DNA of 64,000 nucleotides from Erysipelotrichaceae bacterium (GTDB lineage Bacteria > Bacillota_I > Bacilli_A > Erysipelotrichales > Erysipelotrichaceae): assembly GCA_030694975.1 (NCBI GenBank), contig JAUYTU010000035.1, positions 248,001 through 312,000 of the forward strand. Reading direction: 5' to 3'. The position numbers were made by a program, and so were the translations under genes. This document shows, piece after piece, positions 49,155 through 60,844 of this stretch (positions are counted from its first letter, which is position 1; the number at the start of each line of letters is the position of its first letter). Below the pieces are notes generated by a model, which worked only from the letters and a program-made list of their open reading frames with translations, did no database searches and was not told the DNA's origin.

Positions 49155-50021
49155 TTATTGACCCGTACGGTCATGCCAGCCGCGCGAACGGTTATATTGC
49201 CTTAATAAGTTAAAATCGGATACATTGATGTGTTTGGTATAAAAGTCCAGATTGCTTTTAAAAAGTGCCAGAACGACCAAATCGATGACAAACATCTGTG
49301 AGATCCTTAGCCGTAAAACGTTGAGTCTCTCGTTTGTGCTGTATATCACCGTATGCAATGAAACCGTGGAAGCTTCACCCAACGTATTCTTACGGGGATC
49401 GGTAATGCCCAAAATCGGAACGTTTAACTGTTTACAGGCATTGACCGCCATTTTGATTTCATCGGTTTCCCCGGATTCGGAAATAATCACGACCACATCC
49501 TTTTCAGTACATTGGGTAATCTGATAGAGGGCTGTGTGAACATCATAACTGTGATTGACCATCATGTTGTAGCGTATCAGATGGGTAGCAAAATATTCGC
49601 ACATATTGGATGATCCGCCAACCGCGAAAAAGACGATGCGTCCGGCTTCTTTTAAAAGTTTCACTGCATCATCCAATTGTTCTGGTAAATGCTCAGTCAT
49701 CGTCATTTTTAGCACATCGGTATACTGACTGAACAATCGCTGCATGGTGATTTCGGTGTCTTCATTGGAAAGGATGTCAACATCGATTTCGGATGGAGTC
49801 TGACTGGAAACACTGATTTCCGCAAGGAAAGCCCGAAAACTGCTGTATCCAAGTTTCTGCGTAAACCGTATGATGGTCGATTGTGAGATATCCAACTGCT
49901 TCCCCAACAGGCTGGACGTCATGATTTTCGGATCGATGGGATTGTTGCGAATGTACTCGATAATTTTTAACTCAGATTTTGAGCAACGTTGAATCATCGA
50001 TCGAATTTTGGCTTGTAACAT
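49155..50021 (-). CDS. RpiR-family transcriptional regulator (HTH + SIS)
   Basis: A 288-residue regulator. The N-terminal HTH_6 domain shows SKSELKIIEYI and ISQSTIIRFTQKLGYSSFRAF; the C-terminal SIS domain (about 130-260) has FFAVGGSSNMCEYFATHL and VVIISESGETDEIKMAV. RpiR proteins sense phosphosugars and control sugar catabolism. Start 50021 follows GGAGTGATATT. It is divergent from the serpin operon, so regulation of either neighbour is possible but unproven. Confidence 0.9.
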   Translation of the reverse strand: MLQAKIRSMIQRCSKSELKIIEYIRNNPIDPKIMTSSLLGKQLDISQSTIIRFTQKLGYSSFRAFLAEISVSSQTPSEIDVDILSNEDTEITMQRLFSQYTDVLKMTMTEHLPEQLDDAVKLLKEAGRIVFFAVGGSSNMCEYFATHLIRYNMMVNHSYDVHTALYQITQCTEKDVVVIISESGETDEIKMAVNACKQLNVPILGITDPRKNTLGEASTVSLHTVIYSTNERLNVLRLRISQMFVIDLVVLALFKSNLDFYTKHINVSDFNLLRQYNRSRGWHDRTGQ

Positions 50022-50040
50022 AATATCACTCCTTTCAACT

Positions 50041-50046
50041 ATTATA
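50041..50046 (-). promoter_or_regulatory. -10 box of rpiR-type gene
   Basis: Perfect minus-strand TATAAT 20 bases upstream of the regulator start; no good -35 was found. Confidence 0.45.
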
Positions 50047-50102
50047 CAGTATGAACGCATATTTTATGCATAAAATGAATAAATTAGTAATGATTTTCAT
50101 TG

Positions 50103-50132
50103 TGCATGTTATTCCGTTATTTGTGCATGTTA
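50103..50132 (+). promoter_or_regulatory. Direct-repeat operator upstream of serpin operon
   Basis: Two identical TGCATGTTA boxes at 50103-50111 and 50124-50132, 21 bp apart (identity extends to TTGTGCATGTTA). The second ends 33 bp before the serpin -10 box. The same arrangement occurs before the third serpin. Confidence 0.6.
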
Positions 50133-50162
50133 CCAAGCATTCTTATGCGATGTAAATTTCAA

Positions 50163-50171
50163 TGATATAAT
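50163..50171 (+). promoter_or_regulatory. Extended -10 promoter of serpin operon
   Basis: TGA-TATAAT; the -35 region TTATGC is poor, suggesting need for an activator. Confidence 0.55.
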
Positions 50172-50192
50172 GTTTTTACAAGGAGGAACTCT

Positions 50193-51425
50193 ATGAAAAA
50201 ATCATTCCTCATCCTTTTTACCGTGATCATGATTGCCGGTTGTTCGACCAAAGCTGTCTTTATCCCCCTGTCCGATTCGCCGGGGTATTTGACCGATAAA
50301 GACAAAGTCACGCAGCTTAGTCCTGATGTTGCCAATGCGAACAATCAATTGGCCATTGATATGATTAACATTCTCAAAAAGACGGAAGACAATGTCTTCA
50401 TCTCCCCTTCCAGCATGATGATTGCTTTAGGCATGACGCTTAATGGAGCGTCAAATAATACGTTAAAAGAAATGGTCGATACGTTGCATATGGCCGATGT
50501 TTCATTGGAAGAATTCAACGACGGACTGCGTGCGATGCAGCTGGTATTGCTAAACCGTCAGGAATCTACCTTAAATATGACCAATTCCATTTGGATTCGT
50601 GATACTTTCGAAGAGCGCGTGCTACCCTCATTTATTCAACGCAACAAACAGTATTACGGTGCGATGGTGGCAGTTGGGGATTTTAACGATCCGCAATTAA
50701 CCAAAGATATCAATACGTGGGTTTCGGATGCGACCAACAAACGCATACCTACCGCTATTGATGAACCCATCGATCCCAATACGGTCATGTTTTTGATTAA
50801 TACGCTCTACTTTAAAGCCGATTGGAAAACGGAGTTTGACAAAGCGGAAACTCGCAAACAGATGTTTTATGGGTTGGCCAATAAAGAAGTTGATATGATG
50901 TCTGCGCTGTTGACCACGGGTTACACCCAGGTTGATGGCAAGCAAGTGGTGCTTTTGCCTTATAAAGATCCGGAATTGACGATGATGGTCATCATGGATG
51001 ATGAAGATGGCAATTACACGGTTGAAGAGTTGATTCAATGGGCTCAGCAGGCACAGGAAAATCCAAAAAGTGTATTGCTGAACTTACCGAAAGTGCAGAT
51101 TGAAACGAAGGTGGATGGCAAGAAACTGCTTCAACAATTGGGGATGGTTGATGCCTTTGAACCTTATATCGCGGATTTTACGGAAATGGCTCAAGATGCG
51201 CTGTTGACCGGATTGCATATTGCTGCTGTGACACAGAAGACTTTCTTGGCTATCGGTGAAAAAGGCACGGAAGCTGCCGCCATGACCAAAGTGGAGATGC
51301 GTGATGAATCTGCGCAAATGGGCGATGTTGAGATGGTCGTTGACCGTCCCTTCACCATCGTCATCCTCGATACCCAACATTCATTGATTTCGTTTATGGG
51401 TTATATTCAAAACCCACAGCCGTAA
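50193..51425 (+). CDS. Lipoprotein serpin 1 (predicted P1 Glu)
   Basis: A 410-residue serine-protease inhibitor of the serpin fold, exported and lipid-anchored: signal peptide with lipobox MIAGC, Cys17. Serpin landmarks include NVFISPSSMMIALGMTLNGA, NSIWI, FLINTLYFKADWKTEF and the C-terminal DRPFTIVI. The hinge EKGTEAAAMT has small residues at P12-P10 and Thr at P14, as in inhibitory serpins. Counting 17 from the hinge Glu puts P1-P1' at Glu372-Ser373. Such serpins trap proteases by loop insertion; the target is unknown. SD AAGGAGG. First of two genes in an operon. Confidence 0.93.
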   Translation: MKKSFLILFTVIMIAGCSTKAVFIPLSDSPGYLTDKDKVTQLSPDVANANNQLAIDMINILKKTEDNVFISPSSMMIALGMTLNGASNNTLKEMVDTLHMADVSLEEFNDGLRAMQLVLLNRQESTLNMTNSIWIRDTFEERVLPSFIQRNKQYYGAMVAVGDFNDPQLTKDINTWVSDATNKRIPTAIDEPIDPNTVMFLINTLYFKADWKTEFDKAETRKQMFYGLANKEVDMMSALLTTGYTQVDGKQVVLLPYKDPELTMMVIMDDEDGNYTVEELIQWAQQAQENPKSVLLNLPKVQIETKVDGKKLLQQLGMVDAFEPYIADFTEMAQDALLTGLHIAAVTQKTFLAIGEKGTEAAAMTKVEMRDESAQMGDVEMVVDRPFTIVILDTQHSLISFMGYIQNPQP

Positions 51426-51436
51426 CAGGAGGTTCT

Positions 51437-52687
51437 ATGAAAAAAATCATGATAGGTTTGTTCGCTGTTGCCCTGAGTGCTTGCACGACGGCTTCTGCGA
51501 TGAATGTATTAAGCCAATCGGAGGGTCATCTGAACCTTCAGGAAGAAGTGACTCGACTGGATGAATTGTGGTTGAAAAACTATAATGAATTTGCCTTCGA
51601 CTTGCATCAACAACTCTCAAATGAAAAAGAAAGCACCTTTTTCTCCCCTGCCAGTATTTTGTTGGCGTTGGGGATGACGGCTCAAGGGGCCGATCAAGAA
51701 ACGCTGAGTCAGATGTTGGCCGCTTTCAATATGGACAATGTCGATCAACTTGAATTTGCCAATCAGATGAAACAGTTTCAACTGCGATTATTGAGTTACA
51801 AATCCAACACGCTCAATCTTGGTAATTCAATTTGGATGCGTGAAGGCTTTGATGAATTTGTTCGCGATGACTTTCTGAAGGTTAATAAAGATTACTACGG
51901 AGCTTTTATTGCGGCGTTGGATTTCAATGATTCGGCGTCCTCAAAAACGATTAACCGTTGGGTCAAAGAGAATACCTACGGACTCATCGATAAAATCGTT
52001 GAAGATGATATCAATCCGCTGACAGTCATGTTTTTAATCAATACTGTTTATTTCAAAGCGGAGTGGATGAAAACTTTTGACAAGAATTTAACGCGTGATG
52101 AAACGTTCTATGCTAAAACTCAGAAATCCGTGAAGTTTATGAATCAAGACGGAAATTTCCCGTATGTGGAAACGGCTGATTATCAGGCCATTATGCTGCC
52201 TTATAAAGAATTTGAATCGTCGATGATTATCTTTTTGCCAAAAGAAGGCAAAGATATTGCTTTGACGGCGCAGCTTTACAACGAGATTTTCAGTGACATG
52301 AGCCGACAGATTGTAAGTGCTACGCAAAGTAAATTGATTCGCTTGTCCTTGCCGAAGATGGAACTGTCCACAGAGATCAAACTGGTCGATACCCTAAATA
52401 TGTTGGGAATGACGAATGCCTTTAATGCACAGAAGGCCGATTTCTCAAAGATGAGTTCGACGGCCTTGCAAGATCAGTTGCATATTGCCAATGTCCTTCA
52501 TAAAGCGGTCTTAAAAGTCGATGAAAAAGGCACGGAAGCTGCCGCTGCCACTTCTGTAGAAATGGGCGTGACTTCCATGCCGATTCTTGATGCATCCATG
52601 ATTGTAAACCGACCGTTCACCTTGGTTTTAGCCGATGCGACCGGAGCGGTGATCTTTATGGGCGATGTCTTGGATCCTCAACCGTAG
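51437..52687 (+). CDS. Lipoprotein serpin 2 (predicted P1 Thr)
   Basis: A 416-residue serpin with lipobox ALSAC (Cys16). Landmarks are STFFSPASILLALGMTAQGA, NSIWM, FLINTVYFKAEW and NRPFTLVL. The hinge EKGTEAAAAT is a perfect inhibitory sequence. By the same count P1-P1' is Thr379-Ser380, preceded by Gly-Val, which might suit an elastase-like protease. It starts 11 bases after serpin 1 (SD CAGGAGG) and shares its promoter. A paralogue from tandem duplication. Confidence 0.93.
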   Translation: MKKIMIGLFAVALSACTTASAMNVLSQSEGHLNLQEEVTRLDELWLKNYNEFAFDLHQQLSNEKESTFFSPASILLALGMTAQGADQETLSQMLAAFNMDNVDQLEFANQMKQFQLRLLSYKSNTLNLGNSIWMREGFDEFVRDDFLKVNKDYYGAFIAALDFNDSASSKTINRWVKENTYGLIDKIVEDDINPLTVMFLINTVYFKAEWMKTFDKNLTRDETFYAKTQKSVKFMNQDGNFPYVETADYQAIMLPYKEFESSMIIFLPKEGKDIALTAQLYNEIFSDMSRQIVSATQSKLIRLSLPKMELSTEIKLVDTLNMLGMTNAFNAQKADFSKMSSTALQDQLHIANVLHKAVLKVDEKGTEAAAATSVEMGVTSMPILDASMIVNRPFTLVLADATGAVIFMGDVLDPQP

Positions 52688-53163
52688 TTCACAGAAGCCG
52701 CAAGGCTTCTTTTAAATGCCTGTAAAGCCGACTCGAAATCCGGATAGGTAGGGATTTGATGATAGGTCAGACTGCCGGTCACAAAACTATTGAACCCTAC
52801 CGGACATTCAATGCCGGATGCATGATTGCGTACCAAGCGTAAATCGGAGAAAATGGGATATATTGCAATCTTCTCACCACCAATCAGCCGTTGGATCGCC
52901 ATGCCCAGTTCGACCATGGTCCCGGTATCTCCGGTGGCCAATTCAAAGAAGAACACAGTGGCTTTTTGAATGTGACGGTTATCCATTTCAAAAATCGTCT
53001 GACTGGTTAGTGGCTTGGACTGATCTAAAGGTAAATCGATGGGATTGGCGACAAAATAATGATCCATTCCTACACCAATCTCCCTCAGCAAGTTTCCTTC
53101 CGACAGCCGTTGTTTTTGATCCGCTTCACTAAAGAGCGGACCGGCATTGTAGATATAAATCAT
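52678..53163 (-). CDS. Nucleoside 2-deoxyribosyltransferase family protein
   Basis: A 161-residue protein with the NDT signatures: MIYIYNAGPLFSEADQ at the N-terminus, the Asp in FEMDNRHIQKA, and the nucleophile Glu in DTGTMVELGMA. Such enzymes exchange bases on deoxyribonucleosides. Start 53163 follows GAGGTAAAA. Its C-terminal codons overlap the serpin 2 stop by 10 bases and contain the serpin terminator. Co-transcribed with the GNAT gene. Confidence 0.82.
   Translation of the reverse strand: MIYIYNAGPLFSEADQKQRLSEGNLLREIGVGMDHYFVANPIDLPLDQSKPLTSQTIFEMDNRHIQKATVFFFELATGDTGTMVELGMAIQRLIGGEKIAIYPIFSDLRLVRNHASGIECPVGFNSFVTGSLTYHQIPTYPDFESALQAFKRSLAASVNYG
52693..52713 (+). terminator. Terminator of serpin 1-2 operon
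   Basis: AGAAGCC-GCAA-GGCTTCT followed by TTT, lying inside the coding sequence of the opposite-strand deoxyribosyltransferase gene. Confidence 0.75.
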
Positions 53164-53165
53164 TT

Positions 53166-53672
53166 TTACCTCAGTACTTTTTGCAGGCCAAAGCGTTCGG
53201 CTCCATCGATAAGATAGATGATTCCGCAATACTGATAACCGGCCTTGTTCAACATTCGTTGCATCGAATGATTTTTGCGATGGGTATCCACTTTGATGCT
53301 GAAAACGTTGTTTCTTATGCAGATTTCATCGCAATGATTCATGGCGAGTAGAGCAAGACCTTCCCCTTTGCGCGACATTTTGACAGCAATGCGGTGGATG
53401 ACGGCATACGGGTCAAGATTGATCCAAGCCCCTTCAAATATTTTCTCATAATTGGGATCGGGTTGAAAACACAGGGCCAAGGTCGCCAGGATATCGTTTC
53501 CTTCCACCAATACGAAAGACCATCCTTGTTCAATATCGTTTTCAATGCTTTGTGCATTGGGATACCCCTTTTGCCACTGATCGATGCCGGCTGCTTTTAA
53601 TCCGGCGATTGAGTCGTTGATGATGTCCATCACAGCCGTGATTTCACTTTTTTCGGTTTTTCTTAACTCCAT
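53166..53672 (-). CDS. GNAT-family N-acetyltransferase
   Basis: A 168-residue acetyltransferase: N-terminal IIND..GIDQWQKGYPN, the acetyl-CoA-binding region VIHRIAVKMSRKGEGLALLAM (R-x-x-G-x-G/A type), and VDTHRKNHSMQRMLNKAGYQYCG near the end. The acceptor substrate is unknown. SD GGAGGCGAAT. The gene ends two bases before the deoxyribosyltransferase start. Confidence 0.85.
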   Translation of the reverse strand: MELRKTEKSEITAVMDIINDSIAGLKAAGIDQWQKGYPNAQSIENDIEQGWSFVLVEGNDILATLALCFQPDPNYEKIFEGAWINLDPYAVIHRIAVKMSRKGEGLALLAMNHCDEICIRNNVFSIKVDTHRKNHSMQRMLNKAGYQYCGIIYLIDGAERFGLQKVLR

Positions 53673-53693
53673 ATTCGCCTCCGCTTTTGCAGT

Positions 53694-53721
53694 ATTGTAT
53701 CACAATCATGCAACTTAACAA
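53694..53721 (-). promoter_or_regulatory. Promoter of GNAT-ndt operon
   Basis: Minus-strand TTGTTA (53716-53721) and extended -10 TGA-TACAAT (53694-53702), 16-bp spacing. The -35 overlaps the end of the upstream serpin-3 operator box. Confidence 0.5.
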
Positions 53722-53738
53722 GAAATTTCTGCAAGTTA
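53709..53738 (+). promoter_or_regulatory. Direct-repeat operator upstream of serpin 3
   Basis: TGCAACTTA (53709-53717) and TGCAAGTTA (53730-53738), 21 bp apart as at serpin 1. The second box ends 34 bp before the -10 box. Confidence 0.6.
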
Positions 53739-53750
53739 AAACAAAGATTA

Positions 53751-53778
53751 TTGTTAGCGGTTATTTTCGGTGTAAACT
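53751..53778 (+). promoter_or_regulatory. Serpin 3 promoter
   Basis: TTGTTA (53751-53756) and TAAACT (53773-53778), 16-bp spacing. Confidence 0.45.
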
Positions 53779-53796
53779 AGGGATGGAGGGATGTCT

Positions 53797-55011
53797 ATGA
53801 TCAAGAAATTACTCATCCTGCTTGCGGTATTCGCTTTGGCCGCATGTACGCAGACCCAGAAGGATTTTGCCTTGGTCAATACCAAAGGTTATCTGTCGAG
53901 TCCTGATCAAATCAGTGATTTGAATGAAGAAATCCGTTCAGCCAATCGTCAATTTGCGTTCGCTCTATATCAGCAATTACTTAATAATGAGAAAAATGTG
54001 TTTTTCTCCCCACTCAGCGTTCAGTTGGCTCTGTCCATGACAGCCAATGGTGCCGCAAATTCGACACTCAAGGAAATGCTTGATGTTTTAAGGTACTCGG
54101 ATGTCGAATCGATGAATGAGTACAGTCGGCTGACACAGTCCTATCTTTTGAATCAAGCTGTTTTCTCGATTAACAATTCCATTTGGATCAAAGAGGCTTA
54201 TCGCGAAAAAGTCAAACAGCCCTTTCTTGACAATATTGTCGAGCATTATGGTGCGATGGTCGCTACGTTGGATTTCAGTTTAAGCAGTGCATCTGAGACG
54301 ATGAATCAATGGGTCAAAGAAAACACGAATCAACGAATCAGCCAAGTCGTAAAGCCACCCATCGATCCGTTGACGGTGATGTTTTTGATTAATACACTGA
54401 CTTTTCAGTCGACGTGGGATGTTCCATTCGAAAAAAAGCTGACGAAAAATGGCGTATTTGCCAACCTCGACCAAGAGATTCAGTATGTGCTTGGCAGTCG
54501 CATCGTACCTTATTATGAGGATGACCGAGTCCAGATGGCGTCCATGCTGACAAAGGATCAGGCGCAGGAGGTCTTGTTTGTTTTGCCAAGACAGAATGTA
54601 ACTTTGAGCAATGCTGAGCTTGTTGATTATTTACAAAAACCCCTGATTCAAGCGTCGGTCGTTGTTCAGCTGCCAAAAGTGATGATTCAAGCGGAAACCG
54701 AAATGAAGGAAACGTTGGGGAAAATGGGAATGCCCGGTGCATTTTTAGATGATATCGCAGATTTTTCCAACATGGCAACCGATGCCCGCGCCGATGGTTT
54801 GCATATTTTCTCCGTTTTACATAAGACGTTCTGGATGTTGGATGAAGAAGGAACGGAAGCTGCCGCTGTGACGAAGGTTGAAATGCAAATCAAGTCGACA
54901 CCGCAAGGCGATTATTCCTTTATCGTTAATCGACCGTTTACCGTTGTTATTCGCGATAAACAGACCGGTCTGATTCTCTTTATGGGGCATATCGTGAATC
55001 CACAGCCGTAA
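53797..55011 (+). CDS. Lipoprotein serpin 3 (predicted P1 Lys)
   Basis: A 404-residue serpin with lipobox ALAAC (Cys17). Landmarks: NVFFSPLSVQLALSMTANGA, NSIWI, FLINTLTFQSTW and NRPFTVVI. The hinge EEGTEAAAVT is of inhibitory type. P1-P1' by count is Lys366-Ser367, which would direct it at trypsin-like proteases. ATG 53797 is preferred to ATG 53791 because GGAGGG is six bases upstream of it and abuts the other. It has its own promoter with the shared direct repeats. Confidence 0.93.
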   Translation: MIKKLLILLAVFALAACTQTQKDFALVNTKGYLSSPDQISDLNEEIRSANRQFAFALYQQLLNNEKNVFFSPLSVQLALSMTANGAANSTLKEMLDVLRYSDVESMNEYSRLTQSYLLNQAVFSINNSIWIKEAYREKVKQPFLDNIVEHYGAMVATLDFSLSSASETMNQWVKENTNQRISQVVKPPIDPLTVMFLINTLTFQSTWDVPFEKKLTKNGVFANLDQEIQYVLGSRIVPYYEDDRVQMASMLTKDQAQEVLFVLPRQNVTLSNAELVDYLQKPLIQASVVVQLPKVMIQAETEMKETLGKMGMPGAFLDDIADFSNMATDARADGLHIFSVLHKTFWMLDEEGTEAAAVTKVEMQIKSTPQGDYSFIVNRPFTVVIRDKQTGLILFMGHIVNPQP

Positions 55012-58728: not shown

Positions 58729-60753
58729 CTATTTTGCTTCGAATAGCAGATCGAGGACCGATTGAATAAAGACATTGACCAAATCACCGTCAAATTGGGT
58801 ATTCGAGCAGCGGATCAGTTCAGCTTTGATTTCTGCTTGACTCAACGCCTTTCGGTGGGGTTGGTCGTTGCTCATGGCATCCACGGCTTCGGCGATTGAT
58901 AAAATACGGGCACCAATGGGGATTTGTTCACCTTTAAGACCGCGCGGATAACCACTTCCATCGACTTTTTCATGATGATCATATACGATTTGGGCAACAT
59001 TGAGATATTCGGGAGTCGTTGATAAAATCCGGAAGCCGGTTTCTGTATGACGTTGCATTTGGGTGCGCTCATGATCGTTGAGCATTTCCGGTTTTTCCAA
59101 GATGCGCTGTTCGATGGCGATTTTTCCGATGTCGTGCAGTTGCGCGGCGAGTTTGAGTTCGATGATTTGATCTCGATCGAAACCTAAAGAATTTGCGAAT
59201 AACTCGCAGATGTGACTGACATGGAGTATGTGGGCTTCTTCGCGTGGACTGCGATTGAACAATGCCTGTAACATTACTTTGATCGTCTGATTACGGCCGG
59301 TTGAATTTTCGGTGATTTTGTTTTGATACATCCGGTCTTCCGCTGCTTGCAATACTTTGAGTATGGACTCATGGGGTTCTTTTTTTGTAGCAAAGCCAAA
59401 GGCGATGGATACGGGTAGTCCCATGATGATCGACTCAGAAGCACTTTTTTTCATTCGAGTAATGACTTTCTCAGCCTCCTCTTCACTAACACCGGGCAGT
59501 AAGATCGCAAACTCATCACCGCCCATACGTGCGATGATTTCATCGGTACGACAACTGTTTTTAATTGCTAATGCCGCACTATGTAAGAGTTGGTCGCCAA
59601 TCGGATGGCCAAAACCGTCGTTAATGACTTTGAGTCCGTTAACATCGCCCATGACCAACGTGATGGGTAAATTACGGGGCATATCGAGACGTTTGATTTC
59701 TTCCTGAAAAAAGCGGCGATTATAAAGTCCGGTCAGCTCGTCGTGATAGCTGAGATACTCTATTTCACGTTCCTTGGCTAAACGGGAGCTTACATCGCGA
59801 AATACCAAAACGACACCTTCAATGGTGTTAACGTTGATCAATGGTGAGGCGTTGCTTTCAACTTCCAAGGTTTTGCCTTGTTTGGTAGTCATAATAAGCT
59901 GTTGCTCGCTGCTGAACAGTTTCCGATGGTTAAGACAATGAAAGATTGGTGAATCAACCGGTTGTTTGGTGATGGTCGATTGAAAGCTGAATTGCTCATC
60001 AAAGACTTCGCCGTTTAGGTTATGGGAGATTTCGAGCAGTTCGCTGGCCATCGGATTGATAAAGTCGATGCGACCGTATTTGTCGACGGTTATAACACCA
60101 TCGCCAATGCTCTTTAGCACAGTTGTCAGTTTTTCTTCGGATAGCTGGCGAATGCGGGTGTTTTCAATGCGTTCGCTAATGTCGATAATCAATCCTTCCA
60201 AAGCGATGAGATGGTCGTGCTCGTCAAAGACGCCTCGGCCTTGTTCCCAGACCCACTTCGTCTTTCCTTCTTTGCTCTCAATTTCATACTCCATTTCCAC
60301 AGTTTCGCGGTTTAGCAATTTGCTTTGCCATGTCGTCCAAATATTTTCACGATACGATTGGAGGATGATATCATTGTAACTTGTCACATTGTTATGCAAA
60401 AGCTCCTCTTTGGTATATCCGGTCAGTCGGTGACAGCCTTCCGATACATATTGCATGGTCCAATTGCGATCATTGCGACAGCGATAGGCCATGCCGGGTA
60501 AATTGGCCATTAAGGCAGACATGCGCTGTTCACTTTCACCGATATAAGCGCTGAGTTTCTGCTCATTTTGTAAGGTTTGGGTATAATATGCGTAGAAAAG
60601 TGCTGCGATACCCAGACTGGCGATGGATACGAGGATTAGCAATCGGTTTTGAAAGAGCATGGCTGAAATCTCACTTTCAGTCAACGCTAAAAATGGCGTT
60701 TTCAAAACGCGGAATTGTTTAATGATTGTCACAAATTCCAGGTATAGTATCAT
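58729..60753 (-). CDS. Membrane-bound PAS-PAS-GGDEF-HD-GYP c-di-GMP signalling protein
   Basis: An N-terminal membrane helix (LLILVSIASLGIAALFYAYY) is followed by two PAS domains (around residues 80-190 and 200-310), a GGDEF cyclase domain with an intact RMGGDEFAILL, and an HD-GYP phosphodiesterase with LHDIGKI and DHHEKVDGSGYPRG. It could both make and degrade c-di-GMP in response to a PAS-sensed signal. The I-site position reads RTDE rather than RxxD. Start 60753 follows GGGTGG; ATG 60660, just before the membrane helix, is an alternative. Confidence 0.9.
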   Translation of the reverse strand: MILYLEFVTIIKQFRVLKTPFLALTESEISAMLFQNRLLILVSIASLGIAALFYAYYTQTLQNEQKLSAYIGESEQRMSALMANLPGMAYRCRNDRNWTMQYVSEGCHRLTGYTKEELLHNNVTSYNDIILQSYRENIWTTWQSKLLNRETVEMEYEIESKEGKTKWVWEQGRGVFDEHDHLIALEGLIIDISERIENTRIRQLSEEKLTTVLKSIGDGVITVDKYGRIDFINPMASELLEISHNLNGEVFDEQFSFQSTITKQPVDSPIFHCLNHRKLFSSEQQLIMTTKQGKTLEVESNASPLINVNTIEGVVLVFRDVSSRLAKEREIEYLSYHDELTGLYNRRFFQEEIKRLDMPRNLPITLVMGDVNGLKVINDGFGHPIGDQLLHSAALAIKNSCRTDEIIARMGGDEFAILLPGVSEEEAEKVITRMKKSASESIIMGLPVSIAFGFATKKEPHESILKVLQAAEDRMYQNKITENSTGRNQTIKVMLQALFNRSPREEAHILHVSHICELFANSLGFDRDQIIELKLAAQLHDIGKIAIEQRILEKPEMLNDHERTQMQRHTETGFRILSTTPEYLNVAQIVYDHHEKVDGSGYPRGLKGEQIPIGARILSIAEAVDAMSNDQPHRKALSQAEIKAELIRCSNTQFDGDLVNVFIQSVLDLLFEAK

Positions 60754-60844
60754 AAACATCCACCCATTTCATTATAAGCATAATTAATGTGAGATGGTTT
60801 GTCAACTAATGCGTCAAAACCACTTAAAAACGGAAAATTCATGT

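Follow-up and report, generated by a model that had tools for sequence, protein, structure and literature searches.

What controls the three serpin genes that lie close together in the genome of an uncultured bacterium of the family Erysipelotrichaceae, and do the short direct repeats found before both of their promoters place them under one regulator? The locus is part of a window of 64,000 nucleotides, the whole stretch of DNA analyzed here, from a genome of 2.19 Mb (G000; other G and C numbers designate related genomes and contigs).

Paired boxes before the serpin promoters

The three genes are on the plus strand and encode predicted lipoproteins that match the serpin family PF00079, namely, serpin A (positions 50193 to 51425 of the window; 2.1e-85; lipobox IAGC), serpin B (51437 to 52687), and serpin C (53791 to 55011). 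Two promoters serve these genes: serpin B starts 12 bp after serpin A, both being behind the first promoter and probably sharing one transcript, and serpin C is behind the second. At the serpin A/B promoter, box 1 (50103 to 50111) and box 2 (50124 to 50132) both read TGCATGTTA, and an extended (TG-N) -10 hexamer, TATAAT (TGATATAAT; hexamer at 50166 to 50171), is located 42 bp after the start of box 2. At the serpin C promoter, box 1 (TGCAACTTA, 53709 to 53717) and box 2 (TGCAAGTTA, 53730 to 53738) are followed by the hexamer TAAACT (53773 to 53778) at 43 bp from the box 2 start; all of these elements are on the plus strand. The original prediction had described 9-bp direct repeats spaced 21 bp start to start before both promoters, with the second box 42 or 43 bp ahead of the -10 hexamer, and each of these statements was confirmed. 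The genome scan that it proposed, TGCAWSTTA-N12-TGCAWSTTA, retrieved only two matches, which are the two serpin promoters, and none in the control; it thus captured the serpin sites, but the exact pattern was too narrow for the LytTR gene and the other targets described below, which are seen only with a wider NGYAWSWTR pattern or a profile.

Under a first-order Markov model, the exact paired pattern is expected about 4e-5 times per window and 0.0015 times per genome, and four of the five single TGCAWSTTA words in the window are in the two serpin pairs. The original prediction had also named an absence of the boxes from relatives as evidence against itself. Paired boxes are kept at both promoters, in five further species for serpin A/B (G001, G002, G003, G005, and G006) and in G001, G002, G003, and G005 for serpin C. 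Conservation in the A/B unit is concentrated in the boxes (pairwise identity, 0.93 and 0.76), whereas the spacer (0.58) and the region from box 2 to the -10 hexamer (0.45) have drifted. The two serpin units consist of related genes a few kilobases apart, so that the repeats might be a relic of duplicated promoters, if not a product of chance; such an origin is hardly credible, given the expected frequency of 0.0015 per genome, the differences between the two promoters outside the boxes, the recurrence of the boxes before unrelated genes, and their persistence while spacers drift. Between the serpin A/B boxes and a divergent RpiR-family gene (49155 to 50060, minus strand), we noted a TGAA-N16-TTCA inverted repeat (TGAATAAATTAGTAATGATTTTCA, 50076 to 50099) that is conserved in most genomes of the genus and is possibly an RpiR operator.

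All three serpins combine the family match with a small-residue hinge (GTEAAA) in the reactive loop, which are features of inhibitory serpins, and are predicted to be inhibitors that differ in the P1 residue. The predicted P1 residue is Glu in serpin A (counted from the hinge; loop GTEAAAMTKVEMRDE followed by S), Thr in serpin B (GTEAAAATSVEMGVT followed by S), and Lys in serpin C (GTEAAAVTKVEMQIK followed by S). For this purpose a script read loops B and C in the genomes of the genus, and loop A was taken from the G000 sequence.

The stand-alone LytTR regulator and its membrane-protein neighbor

The same paired boxes precede a gene for a stand-alone LytTR protein of 176 amino acids (C24:24110-24637). 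PF04397 (1.5e-22) is its only Pfam domain, and the protein has neither a receiver domain nor a transmembrane (TM) segment; its N-terminal domain of about 65 residues is without a Pfam match. The AF2 model contains a confident LytTR domain that resembles 3d6w and the LytTR domains of AgrA. The regulator has its closest named relatives in genomes of uncultured Erysipelotrichaceae (UBA2227, HGW-Firmicutes-19, and others). Its promoter reads CGCAAGTTA-N12-CGTAACTTA, with TAGAAT 43 bp after box 2. This site was among the 24 matches of a genome scan that allowed three mismatches. Since the reversed control gave 46 matches, loose box matches say little by themselves; there is no genome-wide enrichment at three mismatches, and the signal is that of a small regulon.

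The evidence from orthologues is more informative. (i) Those in G002 to G006 and in G015 have paired boxes at 42 or 43 bp from the -10 hexamer; in G015 the LytTR promoter is the only convincing boxed promoter. (ii) Further orthologues of the family, with 43 to 49% identity, keep the boxes (G067, G086, G020, G074, G057, G125, and G172), with an 11-bp gap in G020 and a weaker box 1 in G172. Taken together, the boxes are kept at the same distance in five other species of the genus and in other genera of the family, and nearly all genomes that were read have them before the stand-alone LytTR gene. Because box 1 overlaps the end of an upstream ECF-transporter gene, and the spacer identity within the genus is 0.97, its conservation within the genus may be partly coding; G004, G015, and the other genera, which have other spacers, argue against this. 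The proposal that the repeats are LytTR-type sites is thus well supported by the box layout and by the conserved boxes at the same distance before this gene.

The regulator gene is followed directly by a membrane-protein gene, whose ATG is 5 nt after the regulator stop codon in G000, G003, G005, and G006; such a gene is also found in G004, G015, and further genomes of the family, in each genome that could be read at this position. The G000 protein is small; hydropathy predicts that it has two TM segments joined by a basic loop and that about 135 residues form a C-terminal tail. As it has no Pfam or NCBIfam match above the cut-off, it is the gene order and the topology that suggest an inhibitory role for this partner. 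The AF2 model of the partner is of low confidence (pLDDT of 59), and its sequence matches in the PDB were to poly-ubiquitin chains, of which no single stretch passed by itself; we took these matches as meaningless.

Paired sites of the same layout are used by AgrA and ComE, and the original prediction had accordingly suggested quorum or peptide sensing. The likeness includes the LytTR domain fold and the spacing of about 21 bp. However, AgrA and ComE have a receiver domain and a histidine-kinase partner, whereas the protein described here has the N-terminal domain of about 65 residues mentioned above. No kinase, pheromone, or exporter gene was seen among the ORFs read beside the regulator gene; this gene adjoins the two-TM membrane-protein gene instead, and the predicted targets are envelope proteins. 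That the boxes serve an Agr- or Com-like system of quorum or peptide sensing is therefore very improbable, and the architecture is that of the LytTR Regulatory Systems (LRS; PMC6193735) and not that of the AgrA/ComE two-component systems.

In published LRS, 9-12-9 repeats are located about 10 bp before the -35 element of their own operons (PMC6193735). The systems of Streptococcus mutans (HdrRM, BrsRM, and three others) were the only ones characterized according to a 2018 survey, which stated that what most LRS sense is unknown (PMC6193735). They share with the pair described here a soluble LytTR regulator, a membrane-protein gene directly downstream, and 9-bp repeats with a 12-bp gap upstream of their own -35 element, but their targets are bacteriocin and competence genes, compared to the serpins and envelope proteins predicted here. 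The box of SMU_1070c (GCAACTTAG-11-GCAACTTGA) matches the present box (PMC6193735), and nearly the same box, GCATCTTAG-12-GCATGTTAC, is listed for the putative novel LRS lmo0984/lmo0985 of Listeria monocytogenes (Table 3 in PMC6193735); the latter operon includes an ABC transporter, no regulon is described for it in that article, and the likeness lies in the box. LRS partners usually have three or four TM segments and no external domain, which is common but not defining (PMC13384398), compared to two segments by hydropathy and the tail of about 135 residues here. The partner described here matches no Pfam family, and so neither DUF2154 nor DUF3021, which are named for LRS partners. With a soluble regulator lacking a receiver domain, a membrane-protein gene directly downstream, and paired 9-bp repeats (gap of 11 to 13 bp) before its own promoter, the pair fits the LRS; inhibition by the partner and binding to the boxes are predicted.

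The genome encodes one other LytTR protein that we could find, the response regulator (C10:72565-73284) of a two-component system in which a LytS/BtsS-like kinase gene and the regulator gene are followed by a CstA-like transporter gene (C10:70300-75800). LytTR response regulators use paired repeats, so that this protein might be considered to bind the boxes. Such an assignment is decidedly unlikely, since paired boxes in the 5.5 kb around lytSR and the CstA-like gene score 8.3 at best, whereas the regulon sites score at least 10.3 (median, 22.8). The score of the lytSR region in G002 is no better, and in nearly every genome read the boxes do adjoin the stand-alone LytTR gene.

Promoters sharing the paired boxes

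A degenerate pattern of the NGYAWSWTR type, applied over the genus, revealed recurring sites before the genes for a beta-propeller protein (PF09826) and a Big_14 lipoprotein (PF20251). We then used two profiles, for which matches above an E value of about 0.005 were counted as chance unless orthologues agreed. The sequence-only profile R1, built from 25 promoters of five units, found two units that were absent from its training, namely, those of an LtaS-like sulfatase-family enzyme (E value of 1.7e-5 in G000, plus orthologues) and of a DUF4358 lipoprotein (E value of 4e-4 in G002). The LtaS-like promoter is boxed in all seven genomes of the genus and the DUF4358 promoter in several. Profile R2, built from 32 promoters, retrieved seven units in G000 at E values of 1.2e-5 or lower, the next match being at 0.109; these values are partly due to construction, since all seven units have members in the training set. 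The evidence for the regulon is thus the gap in E values together with the independent finds of R1 and the recurrence in other species. The promoter of an eighth unit, encoding a PrsA-like foldase, has an R2 E value of 0.25 in G000; on reading, TGCAGCTTR-N12-NGCAAGCTR is present in G000, G002, G003, and G006, and a weaker pair is present in G004.

The predicted targets are consequently serpins A/B, serpin C, the LytTR operon, and the genes for the beta-propeller, Big_14, and DUF4358 proteins, the LtaS-like enzyme, and the PrsA-like foldase. Every unit recurs across the genus, and all target products, including the partner, have a predicted signal, lipobox, or TM segment, the regulator itself being the exception. 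The original suggestion that the two serpin units belong to one regulon is supported by the further promoters that share this geometry and by the conservation in other genera. In G000, the DUF4358 promoter (C30:59331-59402) is near a contig end, and the gene (C33:143-661) starts another contig, on which the sequence upstream of it differs; the two may have been parted by an insertion or by a break in the assembly. Weak box-like matches were also observed upstream of further LtaS-like sulfatase-family genes (G004:C135 and G005:C19). A pattern match at C38:60785, close to where an unrelated ORF starts and with no counterpart seen in the relatives, was disregarded.

The best -10 hexamer is 42 to 44 bp after the box 2 start in 41 of 47 promoters, and the other six also have a -10-like hexamer at 42 or 43 bp. 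Box positions 2, 4, 7, and 8 are nearly fixed; at position 6, G and C are equally frequent (47:47). The -35 elements are poor (a mean of 3.3 of 6 positions), and the boxes, at about -75 to -46 as estimated from the -10 position, end upstream of them.

Proposed control of the regulon

We propose, with a probability of about 0.78, that the paired boxes are activator sites of an LRS-type LytTR regulator, the product of C24:24110-24637, which is restrained by its membrane partner and switches on its own operon and some seven further units. That this regulator binds the boxes, that it activates, that the partner inhibits it, and what kind of signal is sensed are all inferred parts of the proposal. 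In the resting state the partner would probably hold the regulator inactive. The regulator would be released by a signal, for which stress to the envelope or from proteases is the most plausible candidate. It would then bind the two boxes beside the weak -35 element and switch on its own operon, resulting in positive feedback, as well as serpins A/B, serpin C, the secreted beta-propeller protein, Big_14, DUF4358, the LtaS-like enzyme, and the PrsA-like foldase. Activation, feedback on the own operon, and restraint by the partner are the most likely arrangement in view of the box position upstream of a weak -35 element and the analogy to LRS (PMC6193735), and the exported or membrane location of the targets suggests a signal of envelope or protease damage. 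As the switch is common to the serpin units, the LytTR/membrane-protein pair, and the other promoters of exported proteins, this LRS-like sensor probably turns on a program of cell-surface protection.

Sequence alone does not reveal the direction of control, and the regulator might be a repressor, or the partner its activator, so that the serpins would be on by default. This is unlikely, since boxes upstream of the -35 element are in the usual position of an activator, the -35 elements are poor, and the characterized LRS regulators are activators (PMC6193735). A more specific version of the proposal has an even chance of being correct, namely, that the pair represents a distinct Erysipelotrichaceae-type lineage of LRS with a new partner whose long tail is extracytoplasmic, that it senses envelope or protease damage, and that it couples serpins with Glu, Thr, and Lys baits to a foldase and a teichoic-acid-synthase-like enzyme.

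The open-access literature searched contained no paper with both LytTR and serpin, and, as far as this literature shows, the partner type and the regulon are new. The predicted genus-wide regulon of exported proteins assigns to LRS a testable role in envelope protection. According to Alvarez-Martin 2012, as cited in PMC8012564, the serpin gene of Bifidobacterium breve is under protease-inducible two-component control. There, as proposed here, a bacterial serpin has its own autoregulated control system, but the B. breve system is beside the serpin operon, whereas here a distant LytTR/membrane-protein pair would control a multigene envelope regulon; this pair may represent a second kind of dedicated control of bacterial serpins.

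Other features noticed in the window, all on the minus strand, are a 6S RNA (RF00013; 21028 to 21184), a T-box leader (RF00230; 24402 to 24604), and a gene for a PAS-PAS-GGDEF-HD protein (58729 to 60759), which is likely a cyclic-di-GMP signaling protein.
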